Assembly: GCF_001457775.1 (NCBI RefSeq)
Contig: NZ_CYSG01000006.1
Span: 62,001 to 126,000 of the forward strand
Source: Phaeobacter sp. CECT 5382
GTDB lineage: Bacteria; Pseudomonadota; Alphaproteobacteria; Rhodobacterales; Rhodobacteraceae
Direction: 5' to 3'
Length of the DNA stretch: 64,000 bases
In this document: positions 45,258-60,765 of the stretch, piece after piece
How the letters are laid out: every line of letters starts with the position of its first letter
Numbering within the stretch: position 1 is the first letter of the stretch
Made by a program: the position numbers and the translations under genes
Notes under the pieces: generated by a model
The model's input: only the letters and a program-made list of their open reading frames with translations
Databases searched by the model: none
Told to the model about the DNA's origin: nothing

Positions 45258-46142
45258 TTAGCCTTTGATCGCTTTCAGAACCGCTTCGCCGAGGCCTGCG
45301 GGGCTTTCGGCGACAACGATGCCTGCGGATTTCATCGCTTCGATCTTGTCTTCAGCGCCACCTTTGCCGCCAGCGACAATTGCGCCCGCGTGGCCCATGC
45401 GACGGCCGGGAGGGGCTGTACGACCGGCAATGAAGCCAGCGACGGGTTTCCAACGGCCTTTTTTGCGCTGCTCGGCGAGGAATTCTGCGGCTTCCTCTTC
45501 GGCAGAGCCACCGATTTCACCGATCATGATGATCGACTGGGTTTCGTCATCGTCCAGGAACAAGTCCAGCACGTCGATGTGCTCGGTGCCCTTGATTGGG
45601 TCGCCACCAATGCCAACAGCCGAAGACTGGCCCAGGCCGATGTCAGAGGTCTGCTTGACCGCCTCGTAGGTTAGGGTGCCGGAGCGCGACACAACACCGA
45701 CGCTGCCGCGCTGGTGGATGTGGCCAGGCATGATGCCGATCTTGCAGGCGTCAGGCGTGATGACACCGGGGCAGTTAGGGCCGATCAAGCGCGATTTAGA
45801 TCCGTCCAGCGCGCGCTGAACACGCATCATGTCCAGCACAGGAATGCCTTCGGTGATGCAGACGATCAGTTCCATCTCGGCGTCGATTGCCTCGAGGATA
45901 GAATCGGCGGCAAAGGGGGGCGGCACATAGATGACGGAAGCGTTGGCTTCGGTCACGTGCTTGGCTTCATGCACGGAGTTGAAAACCGGCAGGTTCAGGT
46001 GGGACTGGCCACCCTTGCCTGGGGTGACGCCGCCGACCATCTTGGTGCCATAGGCGATGGCCTGTTCAGAGTGGAAGGTGCCCTGCGAGCCGGTAAAGCC
46101 CTGACAGATAACCTTGGTGTTTTCGTCGATGAGGACTGCCAT
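45258..46142 (-). CDS. sucD: Succinyl-CoA synthetase alpha subunit
   Basis: Carries the CoA-binding domain and the phosphohistidine of succinyl-CoA synthetase. The 294-residue protein has [14 protein letters not shown] (CoA binding), [22 protein letters not shown] and MGHAGAIV with the phosphorylated His251. With SucC it makes GTP or ATP from succinyl-CoA. Unusually, a methyltransferase gene lies between sucC and sucD. Confidence 0.97.
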
Positions 46143-46157: not shown

Positions 46158-46958
46158 TTAAGAGTTGGTTTTGCGCAGAAGCACCGTGATATTGTCGTCG
46201 ACCGGCAGGGAGAACTTGTTCACCAGATGGGTGGTGAACCCTGCGCGCGCGGCGACATCACTAAGGCTTTGCAGCGTGAAGTAGTTGACGTGATCGGGGT
46301 AGCGGAAACCGCACCATTTTGGCCCGATCACACGGCGATTAAAGGAAGCATAGTTGGGAACCCGGATGAAAACCCCGCCCGAAGGTTTTAGGGCCCGGTA
46401 CGCCCCATCGAGCACTTTCATGACCGCGCTTTCATGTTCCAGATAAGAGAACATGACAACGCCATCAAAGTGTTCAGCGGGGAAATCCCAGATTGCTTCG
46501 GCACCCGGCCCATGCAGGCAATAGCCGCCTTGCTGGCGCATCCAGGCGTCCGCTTTGCTGTGCATCTCAACCGACAATTCAATCCCGAAAGGGGTCATTG
46601 GCGATTTGATGCGCTGGCCCCAGCCGCAGCCGATATCCAGCACCAGCCCATCGTTGAACCACTTGCGAAATTGCGGGGTTTTATCCCGGTACATCCCCAA
46701 GCCGTTGCGGATTTTGCGTGCCATGGGGCTAAAGGGCGTCGAGCCATTTGAAGCCGATTTCTTGGCCTCATAGGTCTTTTCCCAGGCAAAATCCTCTTCG
46801 AGGGCTTCATAGGCGGGCGGGTTGCGCAGAAAGACGAACTGGCACGGATCACAGCTGACAACGTCCCAAGGTTTCGGCGAATAGGCCGAAACCGAGTTCG
46901 CGTCCTTGCTCCCGCAAGCGGGGCAAGTGCGATTTACGTCTGTATGATCCAATGCCAT
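46158..46958 (-). CDS. Class I SAM methyltransferase with N-terminal Cys4 motif
   Basis: A 266-residue protein: a Cys4 zinc-ribbon-like start (C12, C15, C36, C39), then a methyltransferase domain with [13 protein letters not shown] (motif I) and [14 protein letters not shown], and a C-terminal half with [30 protein letters not shown]. This layout matches small-molecule or sugar methyltransferases near polysaccharide genes. It lies 7 bp from sucC and 15 bp from sucD on the same strand, so it must be transcribed with them. A link to the glycosyltransferase at 48.6 kb is possible. Substrate unknown. Confidence 0.85.
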
Positions 46959-46965
46959 GCTCGGT

Positions 46966-48159
46966 TCAGCCTTTAACCGCTTTCACGATTTTCTCGGCGC
47001 CGTCGGACAGGTTGTCGGCAGCGATCACATCAAGACCGGAGTTGTTGATGATGTCTTTGCCGGCTTCCACATTGGTGCCCTCAAGGCGAACAACCAGCGG
47101 AACTTGCAAGCCAACTTCTTTCACCGCGGCAACTACGCCCTCGGCGATCACATCGCAGCGCATGATGCCGCCAAAGATGTTGACCAGGATGCCTTTGACC
47201 TGTGGGTCCGAGGTGATGATCTTGAAGGCCTCGGTGACTTTCTCTTTGGTGGCGCCGCCGCCAACGTCAAGGAAGTTTGCAGGCTCTGCACCGTAGAGTT
47301 TGATGATGTCCATGGTGGCCATCGCCAGACCCGCGCCGTTCACCATGCAGCCGATCTCACCGTCGAGCGCGATGTAGTTCAGGTCGTACTTCGATGCTTC
47401 GAGCTCTTTGGGGTCTTCTTCGGTGGTGTCGCGCAGTTCGGCCACATCGGGGTGGCGATACATGGCGTTGCCGTCAAAGCTGACCTTGGCGTCGAGCACT
47501 TTCAGATCACCGGTGTCCGACACGATCAGCGGGTTGATCTCCAGCATCTCCATGTCTTTTTCGACGAAGGCTTGATAGAGCTGACCCATCAGTTTGACGC
47601 ACTGCTTGATCTGCTGACCCTCAAGACCCAGCGAGAAGGCAACGCGGCGACCGTGGAACGCCTGATAGCCGGTGGCCGGATCGACGCTGAACGACAGAAT
47701 CTTTTCGGGGGTGGCGGCTGCCACTTCCTCGATGTCCATGCCGCCCTCGGTGGAGCAAACAAAAGAGATGCGCGAAGTCTGGCGATCAACCAGCAGCGCC
47801 AGGTACATTTCTGTCTGAATGCCGGAACCTGCTTCGATGTAGATGCGGTTCACTTGCTTGCCGGCTGGGCCAGTCTGATGCGTGACCAGGGTGCGGCCCA
47901 GCATCTTCTTGGCTTCCTCGGAAGCCTCTTCGACCGATTTGGTCAGGCGGACACCGCCTTTTTCACCGGCATCGGCTTCTTTGAAGGAGCCCTTGCCGCG
48001 ACCGCCGGCATGGATTTGTGCTTTTACCACCCAAAGCGGGCCGTCAAGCTCGCCTGCGGCGGTTTTGGCTTCGTCGGCCTTCAACACGATGCGACCGTCG
48101 GAAACTGGCGCTCCGTAGCTGCGAAGAAGGGCCTTGGCCTGATATTCGTGGATGTTCAT
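46966..48159 (-). CDS. sucC: Succinyl-CoA synthetase beta subunit
   Basis: ATP-grasp subunit of succinyl-CoA synthetase. The 397-residue protein begins [16 protein letters not shown] and has [29 protein letters not shown] and [14 protein letters not shown], plus [15 protein letters not shown] in the ligase half. Length is normal. The region upstream holds two GTGATCAC palindromes (48272-48300) shared with the sdh operon, the likely operator of the whole suc operon. Confidence 0.97.
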
Positions 48160-48267
48160 GAGAAACTGTCCCGTCTGGCTTCAATAATCTCTGTCATAAC
48201 GCCGTCATAAGACGAATGTTTAAAGGGTTTTTTGACAGTTCACGGGGAAATGATGAAGATTTTCCAG

Positions 48268-48304
48268 ATATGTGATCACACTTTTGGACCGTGTGATCAC
48301 ATAT
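48268..48304. promoter_or_regulatory. Paired GTGATCAC operator of the suc operon
   Basis: ATATGTGATCACAC (48268-48281) and GTGTGATCACATAT (48291-48304) form a perfect 14-bp inverted repeat. Each arm is itself a TGTGATCACA palindrome; the octamers GTGATCAC start at 48272 and 48293, exactly 21 bp apart. The pair is centred 127 bp upstream of the sucC start. The same pair with the same spacing precedes sdhC. Confidence 0.8.
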
Positions 48305-48346
48305 CGAAAAGCGGTTAAATCTTGTCGATTCGTTCGGTGTAGTCCC

Positions 48347-48667
48347 ATGACGCGTCGCTGGCGGCGACGGGTCAAGTTCATTTGCGATGGCTCAGACTGG
48401 CTGGCCTTCGGCCGCGTCGCACGTGACGCGGGGCAATTGCGGGTGCGTTTGTGCGGCGACACGGATTGGACCGGTGCAGAACAAAGAACACCCGGCAAAG
48501 ACTGGTTCTCGCAGGCTGTCGATACCGTTGCTGCGGGGAAAGGATCTGTCAAACGATCCAAAAGAGAGAGCCGCCGCCTCCAGATGCAAGCGATGTTGCA
48601 ACGTTCTATGGTAAATCGTAAACCGGACTGGCGGTTTTTATGGACTGATCGTTCTGCCGTGCCCTGA
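48347..48667 (+). CDS. Doubtful hypothetical protein
   Basis: A 106-codon frame starting MTRRWRRRVKFICDGSDWLAFG. Its first half has coding-like third positions and a protein-like composition, but no ribosome-binding site was found, its 3' end overlaps the convergent glycosyltransferase by 62 bp, and codon use becomes less typical toward the end. It may be a real small gene, a gene remnant or chance. If it is not a gene, the 446-bp stretch 48160-48605 holds only the suc operator. Confidence 0.3.
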   Translation: MTRRWRRRVKFICDGSDWLAFGRVARDAGQLRVRLCGDTDWTGAEQRTPGKDWFSQAVDTVAAGKGSVKRSKRESRRLQMQAMLQRSMVNRKPDWRFLWTDRSAVP

Positions 48668-49457
48668 CAAGACGCTCGTAGGTTTTCGGAGAGACAAATT
48701 CCCGCAAACTAATGGGCTTTTTCGGGGAAAGCTGTGGCGCTTGATGCAATGGGCGAACGTGCAGGCAGCGCACCGCTCCATTGTGGGGCCCCCACCTATC
48801 CAGGATGGCCAGTTTGATCAGGTTGTACTCTTGGCCCAGAACTAGCGGAATGAATTTGTGGCGAAACAGAACCCCCCGGAGAATTGGCTGATCCTTCCTG
48901 AGAGGGGAGTTGTGGAAGCTATGGTCCCAGTCTGTCAGGATATCCTTTGTGATCTTACATTTTTTGATACCCACGAAACCGCCGTTCAAGAGCGGAAAAC
49001 CGTGCGGAATTCCTTTCATATAGGAAATCATTTCGACGCGGCGCCGCGAAACACCCAAGGCGCCAACCATTGGCCTGATTTCAAGGAGATCAAAAACATC
49101 TGACAGGTCTTCCAGGACGACAATATCTGCATCCAGATAGATCGTTTTGTCAAAGCGCGAATTCAGAAGCGAGCACATTTTGGGGCGTGGGCCGCTGCGA
49201 TCCACCGGGTGGATCTGGTTGAAAACGGGATCCGAAATCTCCTGATCAGTGAAAAGGTCAATCTTGGCCTCTGGCATGGCCAGACGGAGGGTTCGCGCAG
49301 CACGGCGGGCAAGGTTGGTATACTCCAGACCAGTCGTGGCAAAAACAAACCCGTTGTTCCGGTTTTTGGTCTTGGTCGAAGCCGAAGCTTGCGAAGCAAT
49401 TTTCCTAAAAATTCGTTTAAAGAACATGTCGGCCTGCTGCTGGCTGGTGAAAATCAA
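48606..49457 (-). CDS. Glycosyltransferase (GT8-like)
   Basis: A 283-residue GT-A type sugar transferase. It has a DxD metal motif in TIYLDADIVVLEDL, an upstream NNGFVFATTGLEYTNLARRAAR, GALGVSRRRVEMI and LLNGGFVGIKK. Such enzymes add sugars to surface polysaccharides or proteins; the acceptor is unknown. Base composition is lower in GC than the flanking mdh and sucC, suggesting horizontal acquisition. The start may instead be ATG 49427. It interrupts the mdh-suc order on the same strand. Confidence 0.8.
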   Translation of the reverse strand: MIFTSQQQADMFFKRIFRKIASQASASTKTKNRNNGFVFATTGLEYTNLARRAARTLRLAMPEAKIDLFTDQEISDPVFNQIHPVDRSGPRPKMCSLLNSRFDKTIYLDADIVVLEDLSDVFDLLEIRPMVGALGVSRRRVEMISYMKGIPHGFPLLNGGFVGIKKCKITKDILTDWDHSFHNSPLRKDQPILRGVLFRHKFIPLVLGQEYNLIKLAILDRWGPHNGAVRCLHVRPLHQAPQLSPKKPISLREFVSPKTYERLVRARQNDQSIKTASPVYDLP

Positions 49458-49518
49458 ATGGCGGCTTGCTGAGCGAAAGCCGACTGCTCAAAACCAAACT
49501 AAAAAAGCAAAAAAAGCG

Positions 49519-49546
49519 CATAAGCCCGGAATGCTCCGGGCTTATG
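49519..49546 (-). terminator. Rho-independent terminator of mdh
   Basis: CATAAGCCCGGA (49519-49530) and TCCGGGCTTATG (49535-49546), a perfect 12-bp stem with a 4-nt loop, followed on the minus strand by GCGCTTTTTTTGCTTTTTTAG. 25 bp after the mdh stop, so mdh is transcribed separately from suc. Confidence 0.95.
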
Positions 49547-49571
49547 GACAACATCATTTCTAGGTTGTGGC

Positions 49572-51023
<1,452 letters not shown>

Positions 51024-51518
51024 GTGTCAGATATCGTCACAACGCGGGCATTGGCGGCAACAGATTACGACGATCTTATTTCGTTGTATCGAGAGCTTAT
51101 GGGGAAGTTGCCAGTACTGGCCGGTACACAAGGATATCGCCGCTTTGAGGAGATCCTGACCCATCCTGGAACGCATATCATTGGCGCAGTTGCAACGGGG
51201 CGCAATGATGGCGGCCAGTCAGCGGGACGGGTTGTTTCTGTCGCGACCTTGCATGTTTTGGCGAACCTTACCCATGAAGGACGGCCCTATGCCTTGATTG
51301 AAAACGTGGTCACATTACAGTCCTGGCGCGGGCAGGGGCTGGCCCGTCAGGTTATGTTGCACGCACAGGATCTCGCCTGGCAGCGGGATGCCTATAAGAT
51401 CATGCTGTTGACAGGGAAAGCGGCGGGGGCACGGGCTTTCTACCAAAAACTTGGCTATCGAAGCGATGAGAAACACGCCATGACTCTGCGGCGAGCCCCG
51501 CTACGGATCACTGAGTGA
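51024..51518 (+). CDS. GNAT family N-acetyltransferase
   Basis: A 164-residue acetyltransferase of the GNAT fold: LAATDYDDLISLYRELM at the start, YALIENVVTL, then the acetyl-CoA loop SWRGQGLARQVM (Q/RxxGxG/A pattern) and ARAFYQKLGYR near the end. The substrate is unknown. I chose GTG 51024, with AGGAGG six bases upstream; the longer frame begins at a TTG without a site. Confidence 0.88.
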   Translation: MSDIVTTRALAATDYDDLISLYRELMGKLPVLAGTQGYRRFEEILTHPGTHIIGAVATGRNDGGQSAGRVVSVATLHVLANLTHEGRPYALIENVVTLQSWRGQGLARQVMLHAQDLAWQRDAYKIMLLTGKAAGARAFYQKLGYRSDEKHAMTLRRAPLRITE

Positions 51519-51524
51519 GCGGGG

Positions 51525-51558
51525 GCGCTTCAGGCGGGCGGGCACTGCGCTTCAGGCG
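51525..51558. repeat. 12-bp direct duplication at a stop codon
   Basis: GCGCTTCAGGCG at 51525-51536 and 51547-51558; the second includes the stop codon (TCA on plus, 51552-51554) of the minus-strand secreted protein gene. Confidence 0.9.
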
Positions 51559-51878
51559 TCGTTGTCGACAGTAGGAACGGCTTCGGCCAGGGCCTCAAAT
51601 GACTGCCCAGAGGCCATCAGACAGGTCATGCCGGTGGGCATCGTTACCGTGATGGTCCAGCTGCCACTCTCAGCAGAGGCAAATGTCTCCATCACCATGC
51701 CCTGCTGGCCAATGCCGATGGCCTGCCGACTTTCGCCGTATTTTTCGGCCAAACGCTGCACGACAACTTCACGCGGCGCGCAATTGCGGCCCTGTGCAGT
51801 TGCCGGGGCGGCAGTGATCAGTGTGGCGGTAAGACCCAGGACAGTCAGGGCAGTCAGGCCAAATGTGGTTTTAAACAT
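51552..51878 (-). CDS. Small secreted hypothetical protein
   Basis: A 108-residue protein with a signal peptide (MFKTTFGLTALTVLGLTATLITAAPATAQ, about residues 1-29) and two Cys in the mature part (NCAPRE and MTCLMASG). GGAGAAGACG precedes the chosen ATG at 51878. The pattern CAPREVVVQRLAEKYGESRQAIG suggests a small periplasmic family conserved in Rhodobacteraceae; no function known. Confidence 0.78.
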   Translation of the reverse strand: MFKTTFGLTALTVLGLTATLITAAPATAQGRNCAPREVVVQRLAEKYGESRQAIGIGQQGMVMETFASAESGSWTITVTMPTGMTCLMASGQSFEALAEAVPTVDNDA

Positions 51879-52333
51879 CGTCTTCTCCATGGGTTTTACC
51901 CTTTGCAGAACGGCCATCCTGAAAGAGAGCAGTCACTTGACCTCTCTGCGAACCCATCAGGCTGGGGCCGGTTACTGTGTGACGTAATCGTTATGCGAGC
52001 CTTTGGCCCAGTCTTTCCTAAAGGGGCATTTTGCCCACGCAGTGAAAGATCACATTGTCAGATCGCGCCCCTGTTCGATGGGCTGTGATCGTGGTTTTTG
52101 ATCTCCGGCCATGGGCCTGTGCGATAGGAAAAGTTTGCCAAGGAGTTTCTGACATTTGGTTAATGCACAGATCCGGACCGATCTTGGGGTTTGGGCAGCG
52201 GATTTTTTTCTTTTTGGAAGGCGGCTTAGGTCTGTGTCGTCAGGTCGTTTCTGCAATGCGGCGTAATTTGCCTTGAAAGTTTACGCCCGAATCTGTAGCC
52301 GTTTGCGCAACAAAATAACTTGGAGATTCCCTC
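51879..52333. other. Gene-free region upstream of mcl2
   Basis: No convincing gene on either strand. It contains T-rich stretches near 52200-52220 and a TTTGCGCAAC near 52301-52310 in front of mcl2 that could be a regulator site, though I cannot assign it. Otherwise nothing recognised. Confidence 0.55.
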
Positions 52334-53188
52334 ATGGATCCGCGCAGCCGCCCCTATCGTTCGGTTCTCTATATCCCCGGTTCCAAACCGCGCGCACTGG
52401 AGAAGGCCAAGACCCTGCCGGTGGACGCGATCATCTTTGATCTCGAAGATGCGGTCTCCGCCGAGGAAAAGGACAACGCCCGCGAGACCCTCGCGCAGGC
52501 GCTGAAAGAGGGTGGTTATGGCGCGCGGGTGAAGATTGTGCGCATCAACGGGCTGGATACCCAATGGGGCGAAGCTGACGCAAAAGCCGCCGCCGAAATG
52601 GATTGTGACGCGATTTTGCTTCCCAAAGTGTCAGATCCGGCAGACCTGGATGCGCTGGCGGCCCTTACCGGTGACAAGCCGCTCTGGGCGATGATGGAGA
52701 CCCCGCGTGGCATGCTGAATGCAGCTGCGATTGCGGCTCATCCCAAATTGCAGGGCATGGTCATGGGCACCAATGATCTGGCCAAAGAGCTGCAGACCCG
52801 GTTCCGGGCTGACCGCCTGCCGATGATGGCAGGGCTTGGCCTGTGCCTGCTGGCTGCCAAGGCCGAAAGCCTGATCATCGTTGATGGCGTTTACAACGCC
52901 TTCAAGGACGCCGAAGGCCTGATGATTGAAAGCACTCAGGGACGTGATATGGGCTTTGACGGCAAGACCCTGATCCACCCGGCGCAGGTCGATGTGGCCA
53001 ACGAAGCCTTTGCTCCGAGCGCCGAGGAAATCGATCTGGCCCGCCGTCAGATCGCCGCCTTTGAAGAGACTGAGGCCTCGGGTCAGGGGGTTGCTGTGGT
53101 TGATGGCAAGATAGTCGAGAACCTGCATGTGGTGACGGCGCGGGAAATTCTTGCAAAAGCAGATGCAATCGCCGCGATTTCCGCCTAG
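52334..53188 (+). CDS. mcl2: (3S)-malyl-CoA thioesterase-like lyase
   Basis: A 284-residue CitE/HpcH-type TIM-barrel protein: RSVLYIPGSKPRALEKA, IIFDLEDAV, ARVKIVRING, ILLPKVS, MMETPRG, MGTNDLAKEL and GFDGKTLIHPAQ. Closely resembles R. sphaeroides Mcl2, which hydrolyses (3S)-malyl-CoA to malate and CoA at the end of the ethylmalonyl-CoA pathway; the true lyase Mcl1 is longer (about 318 residues). Context supports this: mesaconyl-CoA hydratase (mch) lies three genes downstream. Malate then feeds mdh and the TCA cycle in this window. Confidence 0.9.
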   Translation: MDPRSRPYRSVLYIPGSKPRALEKAKTLPVDAIIFDLEDAVSAEEKDNARETLAQALKEGGYGARVKIVRINGLDTQWGEADAKAAAEMDCDAILLPKVSDPADLDALAALTGDKPLWAMMETPRGMLNAAAIAAHPKLQGMVMGTNDLAKELQTRFRADRLPMMAGLGLCLLAAKAESLIIVDGVYNAFKDAEGLMIESTQGRDMGFDGKTLIHPAQVDVANEAFAPSAEEIDLARRQIAAFEETEASGQGVAVVDGKIVENLHVVTAREILAKADAIAAISA

Positions 53189-53189
53189 G

Positions 53190-53206
53190 TGTTAACCAAG
53201 TTAACA
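53190..53206. other. Inverted GTTAAC pair between mcl2 and nnrU
   Basis: TGTTAAC, spacer CAA, GTTAACA: a 7-bp inverted repeat in the 34-bp spacer before nnrU. It could be a weak hairpin or a protein site; the TTAA pair is five bases apart, not the seven of CtrA sites. Confidence 0.4.
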
Positions 53207-53222
53207 TCTTTGGGAGACTGAC

Positions 53223-53774
53223 ATGACACTTCTGGTCCTAGGCATCCTGCTGTGGTGGGGCGCGCATCTGTTCAAGCGCGTGGCCCCCGGCATCCGCGAA
53301 CCAATGGGCGACAAGGGCAAGGGCCTCGTCGCCGTTGTCTTGGTGCTGAGTATCGTTCTGATGGTGCTGGGCTACCGTTCGGCTGAAAGCTATGAGCTGG
53401 CGCTGTATCCACCGTTTTTCCAGCATATCAACAATCTGTTGATGCTGTTTGCGTTGTATTTCACTAGCCCTGGCCCCAGCAAAGGCGCGATTTTCTACAA
53501 GATGCGCCACCCGATGCTGACGGGCTTTGGCCTTTGGGCGATTGCGCATCTTCTGGTCAACTGGGATCCTGCGTCCTTTGTGCTGTTTGGTGGTCTGTGG
53601 GCCTGGTCGATCGTCGAGAAAATCGTTATCAACAAGGCGGAGCCAAACTGGACGCCAAACCCCAAGGGCAGCATCAAAAAGGATGCGATTTTCCTTGTTG
53701 CATCCGTCGTGCTGCTGGGCGTGATCGGCTATGTTCACGGCCTGCTTGGCCCATCGCCCTTTCCAGGAGGCTGA
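53223..53774 (+). CDS. NnrU family membrane protein
   Basis: A 183-residue protein with about six helices beginning MTLLVLGILLWWGAHLFKRVAPG and containing MRHPMLTGFGLWAIAHLLVNWD with His residues in helices, the NnrU/MAPEG-like heme- or quinol-associated pattern. NnrU is linked to nitric-oxide respiration in Rhodobacter but is also present in non-denitrifiers, so its role here is open. Lies 34 bp after mcl2 and 3 bp before the DUF1737 gene. Confidence 0.92.
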   Translation: MTLLVLGILLWWGAHLFKRVAPGIREPMGDKGKGLVAVVLVLSIVLMVLGYRSAESYELALYPPFFQHINNLLMLFALYFTSPGPSKGAIFYKMRHPMLTGFGLWAIAHLLVNWDPASFVLFGGLWAWSIVEKIVINKAEPNWTPNPKGSIKKDAIFLVASVVLLGVIGYVHGLLGPSPFPGG

Positions 53775-53777
53775 GGC

Positions 53778-53981
53778 ATGAAGCTCTATCGGTTCCTGAG
53801 CGAAGACGACACATCCGCCTTTTGTCACAAGGTGACTGATGCGCTGAACAAGGGATGGGAGCTGCATGGCAGCCCCACCCAGACCTTTGACCCCGTCAAG
53901 GGTATCATGCGCTGTGGTCAATCTGTGGTGAAAGAGGTGGATGGCACCTACACACCCGATACGAAACTGGGAGAACACTGA
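53778..53981 (+). CDS. DUF1737 small protein
   Basis: A 67-residue soluble protein (KLYRFLSEDDTSAFCHKVTDALNKGWELHGSP) matching DUF1737, a short family with a TNF-like WELHG motif and unknown function. Its stop shares a base with the mch start, so it is coupled to mch. Confidence 0.9.
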   Translation: MKLYRFLSEDDTSAFCHKVTDALNKGWELHGSPTQTFDPVKGIMRCGQSVVKEVDGTYTPDTKLGEH

Positions 53982-55027
53982 TGGCCAAGACCAGCGCGGC
54001 AAAAACCAATTCAGGCCGATTTTTTGAAGACTACGCCCTCGGCGATGTGATCACCCACGCGGTGCCGCGCACCGTTTCGGGCGGCGAGCGCGCCATGTAT
54101 CATGCGCTCTACCCGGCGCGTCATGCGCTGTATTCTTCAGATGAATTTGCCCGCCGCTCTGGTCTGCCAAAATCGCCACTGGATGATCTGGCGGCTTTCC
54201 ACATCGTGTTTGGCAAGACGGTTCCCGATGTCTCGCTGAATGCGGTGGCCAATCTGGGCTACGCCGAAGGCCGCTGGCTCTTACCGGTCTATGAAGGCGA
54301 CACGTTGCGCTCGACGAGCGAAGTGATCGGCGTCAAGCAGAACTCCAACGGCAAATCGGGCGTGGTCTATGTGCGCACAAAGGGCCTGAACCAGCGCGAC
54401 GAGACTGTGATGGAATATGTCCGCTGGGTCATGGTGCGCAAAGGCAATCTGGACGCGCCTGCGCCTGAAACAGTGCTGCCGGATCTGGCCAAGGTTATCC
54501 CGGCGGATCAGCTGGTGGTGCCTGCAGGGTTGGATTTCAGCGACTATGATTTTGATCTGGCCGGCGAAGCGCACCGCTGGGGCGACTATGTCGTGGGCGA
54601 GACCATCGACCATGTGGATGGCGTCACCATTGAAGAAGCAGAGCATATGCTGGCCACACGTCTGTGGCAAAACACCGCCAAGGTGCATTTTGATAATACA
54701 GCCCGCCCCGACGGCACCCGGCTAATCTATGGCGGTCATGTGATTTCCATGGCGCGCACGCTATCGTTCAACGGCCTGGCCAATGCGCAGATGATTGTTG
54801 GCCTGAACGGCGGGGCACATGCGAATCCCTGCCTGTCGGGGACAACCATTCGCGCCTGGTCCGAGGTGCTGGACAAGGCCGACACCGCAGCCCCCGGCGT
54901 TGGTGCCATTCGCCTGCGTCTGGTCGCCACCAAAGGCGGCGCGCCTTTTGATCTGAAAGGTGAAGACGGAAAGTACCAGCCTGACGTACTGCTCGATCTG
55001 GATTACTGGGCCCTGATGCCGAAATAA
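53981..55027 (+). CDS. mch: Mesaconyl-CoA hydratase
   Basis: A 348-residue double hot-dog MaoC-type hydratase: FFEDYALGDVITHAVPRTVSGGE at the start, HALYPARHALYSSDEFARRSG, and a second MaoC repeat with GYAEGRWLLPVYEGDT and IYGGHVISMAR. In the ethylmalonyl-CoA pathway Mch converts mesaconyl-C1-CoA to beta-methylmalyl-CoA. Length matches R. sphaeroides Mch (about 343). Co-transcribed with mcl2, nnrU and DUF1737, linking C2 assimilation enzymes in one operon. Confidence 0.9.
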   Translation: MAKTSAAKTNSGRFFEDYALGDVITHAVPRTVSGGERAMYHALYPARHALYSSDEFARRSGLPKSPLDDLAAFHIVFGKTVPDVSLNAVANLGYAEGRWLLPVYEGDTLRSTSEVIGVKQNSNGKSGVVYVRTKGLNQRDETVMEYVRWVMVRKGNLDAPAPETVLPDLAKVIPADQLVVPAGLDFSDYDFDLAGEAHRWGDYVVGETIDHVDGVTIEEAEHMLATRLWQNTAKVHFDNTARPDGTRLIYGGHVISMARTLSFNGLANAQMIVGLNGGAHANPCLSGTTIRAWSEVLDKADTAAPGVGAIRLRLVATKGGAPFDLKGEDGKYQPDVLLDLDYWALMPK

Positions 55028-55190
55028 GCGGCAAGCCAAGCAATCTCAAAAATCACTCCGAAAACCATATGGGGCTGCGTGAGAAACCACGCGGCCTTTT
55101 GCTTTTGATGCCACCCGCTTGGATCAACACTTCTGTGAGCACGGTGCAAATTGCGTGACGGTGCAGGATTATCCGGCCTAGACTTCCTTT

Positions 55191-55958
55191 ATGAGCATCA
55201 GAATGAGGATCAAACCGCATATTCTGGCAGCGGGTCTTGCCTTGCTGCCTATGGCTGCGGGCGCCTGTGATCTAGCGCTGGTGCTGGCGGTGGATGTCTC
55301 CGGCTCGGTGGATGCCGGGGAATATCGGCTGCAGATGGATGGGCTGGCCACGGCACTGCGCGATGGTGTCGTATCCGAAGCCCTTGTGCGGGCCGAAGCA
55401 CAGGTCAGCCTGATCCAATGGTCAGGGCAGGCCCGCCAGGAGGTTTCGATCCCCTGGCAGCCAACCCGCAGCTTTGCCGAGGTCGAAGCCTTGGCGCAGA
55501 TGATCGAGGCGACACCACGGCCCTGGCGCAACTATTCCACCGCCATCGGCGAGGCGTTGTCGCTTGGTTTGGCGCAGTTCTCGCAGGTGCCGCAGTGCAG
55601 GCGCCGGGTCATTGATCTGTCGGGAGATGGCTATTCCAACGAAGGTATTGAGCCCGCCGCGCTCAAACCTGCACTGGATGCAGCTGGGGTTACGGTGAAC
55701 GCCATTGCTATTGAACAAAGCGAGCCGGAACTGACCGCCTATTTCTACGAGCAGGTCATCTGGGGAGAGGGTGCTTTTGTTGAGACGGCGTTCAGCTTTT
55801 CCGACTATCCAGAAAAGATTCGCCGCAAACTGGTACGCGAGGTGGCGCGTAAAACAGCCGCAATCCTGTCGCCGTCGGACGGCAGAGTGGCGGTTTTGCG
55901 GAAATTTCAACAAGGCGCGGAGCAGCGGAGGTCTGATTCTGCAAAAGATTTTCAGTAA
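55191..55958 (+). CDS. Secreted VWA-domain protein (DUF1194)
   Basis: A 255-residue protein with a signal peptide (about 1-25) and a von Willebrand A domain: metal site DVSGS (D35, S37, S39), then a conserved DLSGDGYSNEG block (about 143-153). DUF1194 proteins are exported, cation-binding adhesion-like proteins of unknown partner. It ends about 10 bp before the sdh operator, so its 3' end borders the operon control region. Confidence 0.85.
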   Translation: MSIRMRIKPHILAAGLALLPMAAGACDLALVLAVDVSGSVDAGEYRLQMDGLATALRDGVVSEALVRAEAQVSLIQWSGQARQEVSIPWQPTRSFAEVEALAQMIEATPRPWRNYSTAIGEALSLGLAQFSQVPQCRRRVIDLSGDGYSNEGIEPAALKPALDAAGVTVNAIAIEQSEPELTAYFYEQVIWGEGAFVETAFSFSDYPEKIRRKLVREVARKTAAILSPSDGRVAVLRKFQQGAEQRRSDSAKDFQ

Positions 55959-55964
55959 GGTATT

Positions 55965-55999
55965 TTTGTGATCACTTGACTGTGAGCTGTGATCACAAA
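55965..55999. promoter_or_regulatory. Paired GTGATCAC operator of the sdh operon
   Basis: TTTGTGATCAC (55965-55975) and GTGATCACAAA (55989-55999) form an 11-bp inverted repeat; octamers GTGATCAC start at 55968 and 55989, exactly 21 bp apart, as at sucC. The pair is centred 130 bp upstream of sdhC (127 bp at sucC). A further palindrome CTGTTTT-TAAC-AAAACAG follows at 56004-56021. Confidence 0.8.
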
Positions 56000-56111
56000 G
56001 CCACTGTTTTTAACAAAACAGGTCAAATAACCGCAGAAATTTACCTCTGGTTTGCGTGACAGCAGGCAAAAATCAGCTAAAACACCCGTAGCTATTCTGA
56101 AAGGAGCCAAC

Positions 56112-56495
56112 ATGGCCGATGTAAATCGGGGCGATCGCCCGCTTTCGCCACATTTGAAGATCTATCGCCCGCAGATGACCTCAATGTCTTCGATCCTGAC
56201 CCGGATCACCGGCAATGCGCTTATCATCTCGGTGATGCTGATCGTCTGGTGGCTCCTCGCAGCGGCGACGTCGCCTGCCTATTTTGCCACCGCCAACGGG
56301 GTGATGACATCCTGGTTTGGCGATATCGTGCTGGTGCTGTCGACACTGGGCATCTGGTATCATTTCCTGGCCGGGCTGCGTCACCTCTATTTTGATGCAG
56401 GCCACGGGCTGGACATCGAAACCGCCGAGAAACTTGGCTGGGGCATGATGATCGGTTCAGTTGTTCTCACGGTTATCACCGTGCTTGTGGTTTGA
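56112..56495 (+). CDS. sdhC: Succinate dehydrogenase cytochrome b556 subunit
   Basis: Membrane anchor of complex II. The 127-residue protein begins MADVNRGDRPLSPHLKIYRPQ, typical of SdhC, and has three helices; His in IWYHFLAGLRHLYFDAGHG helps ligate heme b. AAGGAG precedes ATG 56112. First gene of sdhCDAB, downstream of the GTGATCAC operator. Confidence 0.96.
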   Translation: MADVNRGDRPLSPHLKIYRPQMTSMSSILTRITGNALIISVMLIVWWLLAAATSPAYFATANGVMTSWFGDIVLVLSTLGIWYHFLAGLRHLYFDAGHGLDIETAEKLGWGMMIGSVVLTVITVLVV

Positions 56496-56505
56496 GGAGC
56501 AAGAC

Positions 56506-56877
56506 ATGCGTTATTTGACCGCTCGCAAACGTGCTGTCGGCAAAGGTGCCTCTGGCACCGGTACTGAACACCACTGGTATATGCAGGTAAGTGCTGTGGC
56601 GCTGGCCTTTCTGGTGCCAACATTTATCTACATCGTGGGCTCTGCCATTGGCGGCACCCAGGAAGAGGTGCTGGCGACCTTTGCACGCCCCTTCCCGGCC
56701 ATCCTCACGGGCCTGACGCTCTATGCCGGGGTGATGCATTTCAACAAAGGCGCGCAGATGATGATCGAAGACTATGCGCGCGGTTCGGCCCGCAAGATTC
56801 TGATCATGTTTGTGATCGGCCTCAGCTACGCCACCATCGCCACCGGGCTTTTTGCCCTGGCCAAGATCGCGCTGTAA
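56506..56877 (+). CDS. sdhD: Succinate dehydrogenase hydrophobic membrane anchor
   Basis: A 123-residue SdhD with three helices: MRYLTARKRAVGKGASGTGTEHHWYMQ at the start and VMHFNKGAQMMIEDYARGSARKI in the middle, matching the alphaproteobacterial anchor that completes the heme/quinone site with SdhC. GAGGAG upstream supports ATG 56506. 10 bp after sdhC. Confidence 0.95.
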   Translation: MRYLTARKRAVGKGASGTGTEHHWYMQVSAVALAFLVPTFIYIVGSAIGGTQEEVLATFARPFPAILTGLTLYAGVMHFNKGAQMMIEDYARGSARKILIMFVIGLSYATIATGLFALAKIAL

Positions 56878-56889
56878 GGGACAAGTAAT

Positions 56890-58695
56890 ATGGCTGCATA
56901 CGAATACGAGACGCATGACTATGACGTCGTGGTCGTGGGTGCCGGTGGTGCCGGACTGCGCGCAACGCTCGGCATGGCCGAACAGGGTCTGCGCACCGCC
57001 TGCGTGACCAAGGTTTTCCCAACCCGTTCGCACACGGTTGCGGCGCAGGGCGGTATTGCCGCCTCGCTGTCCAACATGGGCCCGGATAACTGGCAGTGGC
57101 ATATGTATGACACCGTCAAAGGCTCTGACTGGCTGGGTGACACGGATGCGATGGAATACCTCGCCCGCGAAGCCCCCAAGGCGGTTTACGAGCTGGAACA
57201 TTACGGTGTGCCGTTCAGCCGCACCGAAGAAGGCAAGATCTATCAGCGCCCCTTTGGTGGTCACACCACTGAATTCGGCGAGGGCCCCCCGGTGCAGCGA
57301 ACCTGTGCTGCCGCCGACCGCACCGGCCACGCCATCCTGCACACGTTGTATGGTCAGTCGCTGAAGAACAACGCTGAATTCTACATCGAATATTTCGCCA
57401 TCGACCTGATCATGTCCGACGATGGCCAGTGTCAGGGTGTTGTCTGCTGGAAGCTCGACGATGGCACCATGCATGTCTTCAACGCCAAGATGGTTGTTCT
57501 GGCCACCGGTGGCTATGGCCGTGCCTTCTTCTCGGCGACCTCGGCCCATACCTGCACCGGTGATGGTGGTGGCATGGTGGCGCGCGCCGGTCTGGCGCTG
57601 CAGGATATGGAGTTTGTCCAGTTCCACCCCACAGGCATCTACGGCTCTGGCTGTCTGATCACCGAGGGGGCGCGCGGCGAAGGCGGCTATCTGACCAACT
57701 CCGAAGGCGAACGGTTCATGGAGCGCTATGCGCCCCAGTATAAAGACCTCGCCCCGCGAGACTATGTATCGCGCTCCATGACCATGGAAATCCGCGAAGG
57801 CCGCGGTGTCGGCGCTGATGGCGACCATATCCACCTGAACCTCAGCCACCTGCCACCCGAGGCCTTGGCCGAGCGTCTGCCGGGTATTTCGGAAAGCGCC
57901 AAGATCTTTGCCGGCGTCGATGTCACTAAAGAGCCGATCCCGGTTCTGCCAACGGTGCATTACAACATGGGCGGCATTCCAACCAACTATTGGGGCGAAG
58001 TGCTGAACCCGACTGCCGACAACCCAACCGGCGTCGTGCCCGGCCTGATGGCCGTGGGCGAAGCGGGCTGTGCCTCGGTGCACGGGGCCAATCGTCTGGG
58101 GTCGAACTCGCTGATTGACCTTGTGGTCTTTGGTCGGGCTGCGGCCATCCGCGCGGGCAAGATCGTCGATGCCGAAGCACCAAACCCAGTGCTGAACCAA
58201 GCGTCGGTTGATCAGGCCTTTGATCGTTTTGACGGGCTGCGTAATGCCAATGGCGGCACTGCCACCGCAGATCTGCGTTTGGAAATGCAGCGCACCATGC
58301 AGTCGGATGCTGCGGTGTTCCGCACCGACAAGTCGTTGAAAGAGGGCGTCGAGAAGATGACCGCTATTGCCGGCAAGATGGGCGACCTCAAGGTCACCGA
58401 TCGCTCGCTGGTCTGGAATTCGGATCTGATGGAGACGCTGGAGCTGGCCAACCTGATGCCAAACGCGCTGGCGACCATTCACGGTGCCGAAGCCCGTCGC
58501 GAAAGCCGCGGCGCGCATGCGCACGAAGATTACAGCACACGTGATGATGAAAACTGGCGGGTCCATACCGTCAGCCGGGTTGACGACACCAAGGTGGACC
58601 TCACCTATCGTCCGGTGATCCTGGACCGTCTGACCACCGAAGACGAAGGCGGCATCAGCCTGGCGAAAATCGCGCCAAAGGCACGTACCTTCTGA
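56890..58695 (+). CDS. sdhA: Succinate dehydrogenase flavoprotein subunit
   Basis: Oxidises succinate to fumarate with covalent FAD. The 601-residue protein has GAGGAG (18-23), the FAD-linked His48 in [14 protein letters not shown], the substrate site [13 protein letters not shown] region, and [11 protein letters not shown] and [12 protein letters not shown] near the middle and end. Length is normal. sdhB is not directly next, as is usual, but three small genes later. Confidence 0.97.
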
Positions 58696-59985: not shown

Positions 59986-60765
59986 ATGGTCCAATTCGCA
60001 CTTCCGAAAAATTCCAAGATCACCACGGGGAAGACGTGGCCCAAGCCGACCGGCGCGACAAATGTGCGCAAGTTCAAGATCTATCGTTGGAACCCCGACG
60101 ATGGCAAGAACCCGCAGGTCGACACCTATTTCCTCGATATGGACAAATGCGGTCCCATGATCCTGGACGCGCTGATCAAGATCAAGAACGAGATCGATCC
60201 AACGCTGACTTTCCGCCGGTCGTGCCGCGAAGGGATCTGTGGGTCTTGCGCGATGAACGTCGATGGCATCAACACGCTGGCCTGTATCTACGGGCTGGAT
60301 GAGGTCAAGGGCGACGTCAAGATCTACCCGCTGCCCCACATGCCCGTGGTCAAGGATCTGATCCCTGACCTGACGCATTTCTATGCGCAGCATGCGTCAA
60401 TCATGCCCTGGCTAGAGACCAAGACCAACGCCCCGGCCAAGGAGTGGCGTCAGTCCATCGAGGACCGCAAAAAGCTCGACGGTCTTTATGAATGCGTGAT
60501 GTGTGCCAGCTGCTCAACCTCCTGCCCGAGCTACTGGTGGAATGGCGACAAATACCTCGGGCCAGCAGCCTTGTTGCATGCCTATCGCTGGATCATCGAC
60601 AGCCGCGATGAGGCCACACCTGAGCGCCTTGACCAGCTCGAAGATCCCTTCAAGCTGTATCGCTGCCACACCATCATGAACTGCACCAAGACCTGCCCCA
60701 AGGGTCTGAACCCGGCCGAGGCGATCGCGCATATCAAACACATGATGGTTGATCGGGCGGTCTGA
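59986..60765 (+). CDS. sdhB: Succinate dehydrogenase iron-sulfur subunit
   Basis: A 259-residue protein with [2Fe-2S] Cys (C80, C85, C88, C100 in [10 protein letters not shown]...LAC), [4Fe-4S] Cys C170, C173, C176 with C237, and [3Fe-4S] Cys C180, C227, C233. It passes electrons from FAD to quinone. AAGGAG precedes the ATG. Followed by a strong terminator, marking the end of the operon. Confidence 0.97.

Follow-up and report, generated by a model that had tools for sequence, protein, structure and literature searches.

Twin palindromes upstream of the suc and sdh operons of Rhodobacteraceae are probable AkgR operators, followed by helically phased A/T-rich patches

The AkgR regulon offers the closest described counterpart of the regulatory sites considered here. 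AkgR, an activator of TCA-cycle genes in Rhodobacter sphaeroides, belongs to the GntR family, and we take it to be the product of RSP_0981. One study predicts sucCD, sdh and the genes for alpha-ketoglutarate dehydrogenase as targets of RSP_0981, a GntR regulator (PMC4344238), and another lists the octamer GTGATCAC among AkgR binding sites (PMC6365646). The latter source proposes that a Pseudomonas GntR protein, 32% identical to AkgR, uses GTGATCAC too. Here, we describe paired copies of this octamer in a 64,000-nucleotide stretch of the genome of Phaeobacter sp. CECT 5382 (contig NZ_CYSG01000006.1, positions 62,001 to 126,000; hereafter the window), where one pair precedes sucC and another precedes sdhC, whose operons serve adjacent steps of the citric acid cycle. 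An initial annotation of the window had read the pairs as a shared operator for one regulator, loosely of GntR/FadR type, and had named no described regulator for the two operons. The last point was wrong, as the two sources connect GTGATCAC with AkgR (PMC6365646) and RSP_0981 with suc and sdh (PMC4344238). The shared operator and the type of regulator are both supported. The octamer is tied to a GntR regulator, and the source genome encodes a protein with GntR and FCD domains, P0001, whose gene carries the octamer at its start. We consider it very probable that the twin palindromes are AkgR operators, at which two dimers on one face of the DNA would co-activate suc and sdh, while A/T-rich patches hold them in alignment with RNA polymerase.

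The window contains six copies of GTGATCAC, all where the initial annotation had placed them; in 100 shuffles of the window the mean was 0.86 copies, and six were reached once. Four copies form the two pairs, and all four are kept in relatives. The suc operator comprises a promoter-proximal octamer at 48272..48279 and a promoter-distal one at 48293..48300, and the sdh operator a distal octamer at 55968..55975 and a proximal one at 55989..55996. In both pairs the octamer centres are 21 base pairs (bp) apart, and the pair centres lie 127 bp upstream of the sucC ATG at 48159 and 130 bp upstream of the sdhC ATG at 56112, exactly as first reported. The two stray copies, at 332 and 54047, do fall within coding regions, being parts of open frames in which they are translated as Val-Ile-Thr.

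Single octamers are frequent in the source genome (G000), with 180 copies in 4,112,935 bases, and 10 of the 15 that were inspected encode Val-Ile-Thr in the longest open frame. Because it is a common Val-Ile-Thr coding word, the octamer alone is unspecific for AkgR targets, and we rejected it as a regulon marker. The pattern GTGATCAC-N5..25-GTGATCAC, where N denotes spacer length in bp, occurs only twice genome-wide, both times at N13 and before sucC and sdhC, where simple arithmetic on 180 copies in 4.11 Mb gives about 0.17 chance pairs at N5-25 and about 0.008 at exactly N13. The pair is thus not strewn at random places through the genome. A control with the pattern read backwards was weak, as the word contains CTAG, a tetramer that is rare in many bacteria, and nothing rested on that control. 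The word TGTGATCACA is found five times in 4.1 Mb: twice at suc, once at sdh, once at the start of the P0001 gene, and once elsewhere. This fifth copy (L126:1501-1510 = G000:C2:98801-98810) stands directly before the ATG of a gene that we take to be SCO1/SenC-like, which is followed by a gene for a presumably RegA-like response regulator.

In both pairs, the halves TGTGA and TCACA abut. The former is similar to a CRP half site, and this likeness could assign the sites to a CRP/FNR-type regulator. However, six bases separate TGTGA from TCACA in CRP sites, and we rejected this reading on half-site spacing. With the octamer also tied to AkgR in the accessible part of the literature (PMC6365646), we give ownership by a CRP/FNR-type protein almost no credence.

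Conservation of the pair upstream of suc and sdh in relatives, which the initial annotation had named as a check, is borne out. We sought the pair at N5-30 in 195 genomes sampled from the order, all of which belong to the window's family. It is present in 193 of them: 180 genomes have two or more pairs, 13 have one, and 2 have none. When one pair locus per genome was taken from 30 genomes, 29 stood before sucC or sdhC, the exception being L067 (N19), and all of 20 additional stretches picked from the listed N12 and N13 pairs did likewise. Among loci fetched for the regulator instead, the pair precedes 8 of 9 sucC genes and 3 of 4 sdhC genes, with 8 more such sucC loci cut too near the gene to judge. 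In a sample of 142 genomes from the class, searched at N10-16, five have the pair, comprising the two members of the window's own family and 3 of the 140 others (at N14, N10 and N16).

Promoter statistics were drawn from 31 sdhC and 34 sucC promoters, most of which belong to loci fetched because a pair was present. Sequences were dropped if they shared the same last 200 bp, if the match did not begin at residue 1, or if less than 250 bp lay upstream. Pairs with spacers of N5 (at a GntR gene start, G147), N8 (G010), N19 (G078) and N28 (G057) were left out, and two genes in the set had no pair: the sdhC gene of L143, and L209, a 50% identical sucC homologue. The spacer measures 13 bp in 60 of the 65 distinct promoters and 12 bp in the other 5, from which we infer two dimers on the same face of the DNA, in agreement with the original proposal for a single regulator. 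The flanks of the pair tend to TTT before and AAA after it. Upstream of sucC the series can be longer: L157 and L166 carry three octamers, each 21 bp from the next, and in L181 a third, imperfect octamer lies 21 bp further on.

The source genome encodes 16 FCD-type GntR proteins, and in the fetched stretches of only two of these loci, L018 and L029, does the octamer occur. L018, the best-scoring FCD gene, was rejected as the regulator, its octamer lying inside the upstream gene. L029 is P0001, a protein of 221 amino acids with GntR and FCD domains, encoded on another contig than the window and carrying the octamer at its own gene start, where it ends 10 bp before the start codon. Its closest solved structure by sequence is Escherichia coli McbR (4p9f, E = 7.2e-21). 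In the Cereibacter-like genome G094, the gene order suc, mdh, sdh, GntR places the P0001 orthologue behind sdhB, with 58 kb separating it from the next FCD gene, an arrangement that fits the RSP numbering of RSP_0981. The Cereibacter ovatus copy and the G094 protein share 96% identity; the 80 loci returned include none from R. sphaeroides. In 78 of the 80 named loci, a gene that we take to be ygjP-like lies upstream of the orthologue, at most 240 bp away, and the same gene precedes P0001. The exceptions are L200, a locus truncated within the GntR gene, and L204, where the ygjP-like gene is 2 kb away. By its domains, by the position of its orthologue behind sdhB in G094 and by the ygjP-like neighbour, P0001 is the candidate AkgR orthologue.

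Site and regulator occur together in most of the family genomes. P0001 has a match at E < 1e-80 in 192 of the 195 family genomes, and the remaining three are G110 (1.5e-55), G141 (1.4e-29) and G023 (6.8e-14). G110 and G141, with best matches 47% and 32% identical, are the two genomes without the pair, so that both site and close regulator are missing there, and the exact octamer was not found in their fetched stretches with the sucC and sdhC genes. Within the class sample, P0001 matches at E <= 1e-40 occur in 4 of 142 genomes: the two of the window's family and two at 38-42% identity, which may be paralogues, since G000 itself has a 38% paralogue. A candidate P0001 orthologue, GTGATCAC in the promoter, and sucCD and sdh as putative targets together make up what would be expected of an AkgR regulon, and the pairing of regulator and site is already explained by AkgR.

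Several observations nevertheless weigh against this assignment. G023 has both pairs, while its best P0001 match is only 29% identical (E 6.8e-14); its genome is in about 80 contigs, and an assembly gap at akgR is possible. G110 keeps its 47% identical homologue, with an octamer at the start of that gene, and has no octamer at suc or sdh. L143 has only one octamer before sdhC. Further, the octamer stands at the GntR gene start in only 11 of 79 Rhodobacter-type loci.

A rival reading is that the pair is used not by the AkgR orthologue but by a different GntR/FCD protein that prefers the same DNA. The source genome offers 16 FCD genes, one of them 38% identical to P0001, and the Pseudomonas protein proposed for GTGATCAC is only 32% identical to AkgR (PMC6365646); the pairs of G023 exist without a close P0001 match. 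Nonetheless, the octamer was confined to L018 and L029 among the 16 FCD loci, that of L018 being inside a neighbouring gene, and only three genomes have no close P0001 match, among them both that lack the pair. We consider such a substitute improbable and return to AkgR as the preferred regulator. In near relatives the octamer lies near the GntR gene start in 28 of 30 cases, which suggests that AkgR may regulate its own gene in the window's group, and the position of the octamer would point to repression. In G147 (L095:1450-1470), a tighter pair, with N5, stands just upstream of the GntR gene.

That the pairs lie almost equally far from the start codons, at 127 and 130 bp, was first taken as part of a shared architecture but is peculiar to the source genome. 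In relatives, this distance ranges from 121 to 187 bp for sdhC (31 promoters) and from 110 to 145 bp for sucC (34 promoters). What appears to be conserved is the distance from the pair to the predicted sdhC promoter, rather than to the start codon, and this is probably new. GTGACA or GTGACT (GTGACW) occurs within 110 nucleotides (nt) after the sdhC pair in 27 of 31 promoters, compared with a mean of 1.5 and a maximum of 6 in shuffles. In 24 of these 27 the distance from the pair is 57-60 nt, and between GTGACW and the start codon it ranges from 56 to 114. The other three, at 47, 48 and 69 nt, lie roughly a helical turn closer to the pair or further from it, though these are few cases and were noticed post hoc. 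A blind two-block search of the sdhC promoters returned CGTGAC and a TATTAAG-like block, separated in most cases by a gap of 17, scoring 13.6 bits versus 8.2-8.6 in five shuffled sets. In the window, these correspond to a predicted -35 element, GTGACA, at 56056..56061, and a predicted -10 element, TAAAAC, at 56078..56083, both on the plus strand. In 6 further sdhC promoters GTGACW stands at 58-60 nt in 5, and there is none in L231. Within the original set it is absent from L077, L079, L090 and L110, and L079 is without any plausible promoter.

The sucC promoters gave a weaker and more scattered signal, with 11.7 bits in the two-block search versus 7.7-8.0 in shuffles. No clear -35 and -10 was found in the 34 sucC promoters: the blocks start at offsets 32-64, with 20 of 34 at 43-44, and the placement disagreed among the close relatives L001, L111 and L112. 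A possible sucC -35, CCCTTT, on the minus strand at 48222..48227, is proposed here with low confidence.

Between the pair and the -35 region of both operons, A+T content per column oscillates with a period of about 10 bp, peaking approximately 2, 12, 21-23, 31-32 and 41-42 nt after the pair. In neither set did any of 5000 column permutations match the observed power, although this null takes no account of neighbour correlation. The per-promoter phase has a mean resultant length R of 0.89 for the 31 sdhC promoters and 0.92 for the 34 sucC promoters, where a circular-shift null gives means of 0.16 and 0.15 and maxima of 0.51 and 0.48. Mean identity among the analysed sequences is 33% and 36%, and when the sets were thinned to less than 50% identity (22 and 17 promoters), R was 0.90 and 0.93. 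The 20 stretches picked from the listed N12 and N13 pairs yielded 16 further promoters after 4 were removed as repeats; the phase was within 60 degrees of the earlier mean in all 16, a group that includes close relatives of the first set. Compared with each other, the sdh and suc profiles give r 0.76 with zero shift and 0.80 at a shift of 10, the zero-shift value being reached by 2.4% of circular shifts, as periodic profiles would give.

In the window, the phased patches run from 55997 to 56055 on the plus strand, between the sdh operator and the predicted -35, and from 48228 to 48271 on the minus strand, between the suc operator and the possible -35. In the source genome alone, the phasing amplitude lies at the 81st percentile of window stretches for sdh and at the 97th for suc, the latter over a slightly longer stretch, and the phasing is therefore read from the family rather than from the source genome by itself. 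The indistinct sucC promoter and two control comparisons count against the proposed AkgR arrangement. The null is also exceeded by stretches of equal length upstream of the pair, at R 0.32 (p 0.042) and 0.37 (p 0.0065), as well as by the region downstream of the sdh -10, at R 0.47 (16 promoters, p 0.029). Phasing in these control stretches is far weaker than that between pair and promoter, though above zero.

The A/T phasing might also be a by-product of an embedded operator for the LacI-type regulator CceR, with no part in AkgR action. CceR (RSP_1663) is predicted at sdh with the motif GTT-N6-8-AAC in the accessible part of PMC4344238. Of 31 sdhC promoters, 10 contain GTTAGC or GCTAAC in the interval that separates the pair from the promoter (nt 1-57 after the pair; 0.7 in shuffles), and a LacI-type 12-base word is matched at 9 or more positions in 15 of 31, mostly at offsets of about 2, 10 and 20. 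As this word alternates A/T and G/C, it would add to the phasing, and the words after the sdhC pair are possible CceR sites. Yet removing every promoter with a LacI-type match left R at 0.91 in the 16 remaining sdhC promoters and 0.91 in 30 sucC promoters. Among sucC promoters the word barely exceeds its level in shuffles (mean match 7.12 versus 6.71, the largest shuffle value being 7.12; at least 9 positions in 4 of 34), and the phasing is equally strong. We regard a CceR by-product as unlikely, and a role of the patches in AkgR action as more probable.

We infer how AkgR would bind and activate in this organism, how its dimers would be arranged, and what the patches would do. AkgR, an activator of the GntR family with an FCD domain, would bind the twin palindromes before sucC and sdhC as two dimers, two helical turns apart on the same face of the DNA and upstream of the core promoter. 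From there, the dimers would switch on the suc and sdh operons jointly. The phased A/T patches would most likely keep the AkgR face aligned with RNA polymerase, acting either by DNA bending or as minor-groove contacts for the polymerase alpha subunit. Relative to the predicted sdh -10, the patches fall arithmetically at about -51, -62, -72, -81 and -91, which is close to positions of the alpha subunit in E. coli; patches in this register are compatible with an alpha-subunit contact. We see about an even chance that AkgR sites, patches and core promoter form one array on a single face, in which two dimers (three in some species) at 21-bp steps pass into a 10-bp series of contacts or bends leading to polymerase. 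The promoter would have shifted by whole helical turns in evolution, and the design would have been kept in two otherwise dissimilar promoters across the family. If this is true, a half-turn insertion between operator and promoter should abolish activation, and a full-turn insertion should spare it.

The genes downstream of the pairs are open reading frames matched in relatives, and we named them from their sequences. On the minus strand, these are presumably sucC, for the succinyl-CoA synthetase beta chain (46966..48159), and sucD, for the alpha chain (45258..46142). On the plus strand, they are presumably sdhC, for the succinate dehydrogenase cytochrome b subunit (56112..56495), sdhD (56506..56877), sdhA (56890..58695) and sdhB (59986..60765). 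Between sucC and sucD, also on the minus strand, lies an open reading frame at 46158-46958 that we take to be methyltransferase-like.

In a bacterial family that is widespread in aquatic habitats, one named regulator is thereby tied to two core respiratory operons, through a promoter design that is near-universal and strict. The pair or TGTGATCACA, unlike the octamer alone, would serve as a specific signature of AkgR targets. With the AkgR regulon of R. sphaeroides, this system shares the octamer GTGATCAC and the predicted targets sucCD and sdh, which are accompanied there by the alpha-ketoglutarate dehydrogenase genes. It also shares a GntR/FCD regulator, encoded near sdh in the Cereibacter-like genome; it differs in that the source genome's regulator gene is on another contig, away from sdh. 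Further, twin spacing, promoter distance and A/T phasing go unmentioned in the accessible parts of PMC4344238 and PMC6365646. PS417_07240, the regulator of a deoxyribonate cluster in Pseudomonas simiae, is likewise of GntR type, 32% identical to AkgR, and proposed to use the same octamer. However, it would act on other genes, through a single octamer that spans -47 to -40 relative to the start codon, and no pair is mentioned in the accessible part of that source (PMC6365646). The literature searched, which lacked the primary AkgR study, yielded no account of A/T phasing. Nor did we find a description of the strict twin spacing or the promoter distance there. The promoter distance and, most notably, the phasing are probably new, the primary AkgR study aside. 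Upstream activator sites with UP-element-like A/T tracts are comparable in their helical register with the promoter and in A/T patches at steps of about 10 bp. They differ from the present case, where an alpha-subunit contact is only proposed and the patches keep phase with a twin GntR operator.

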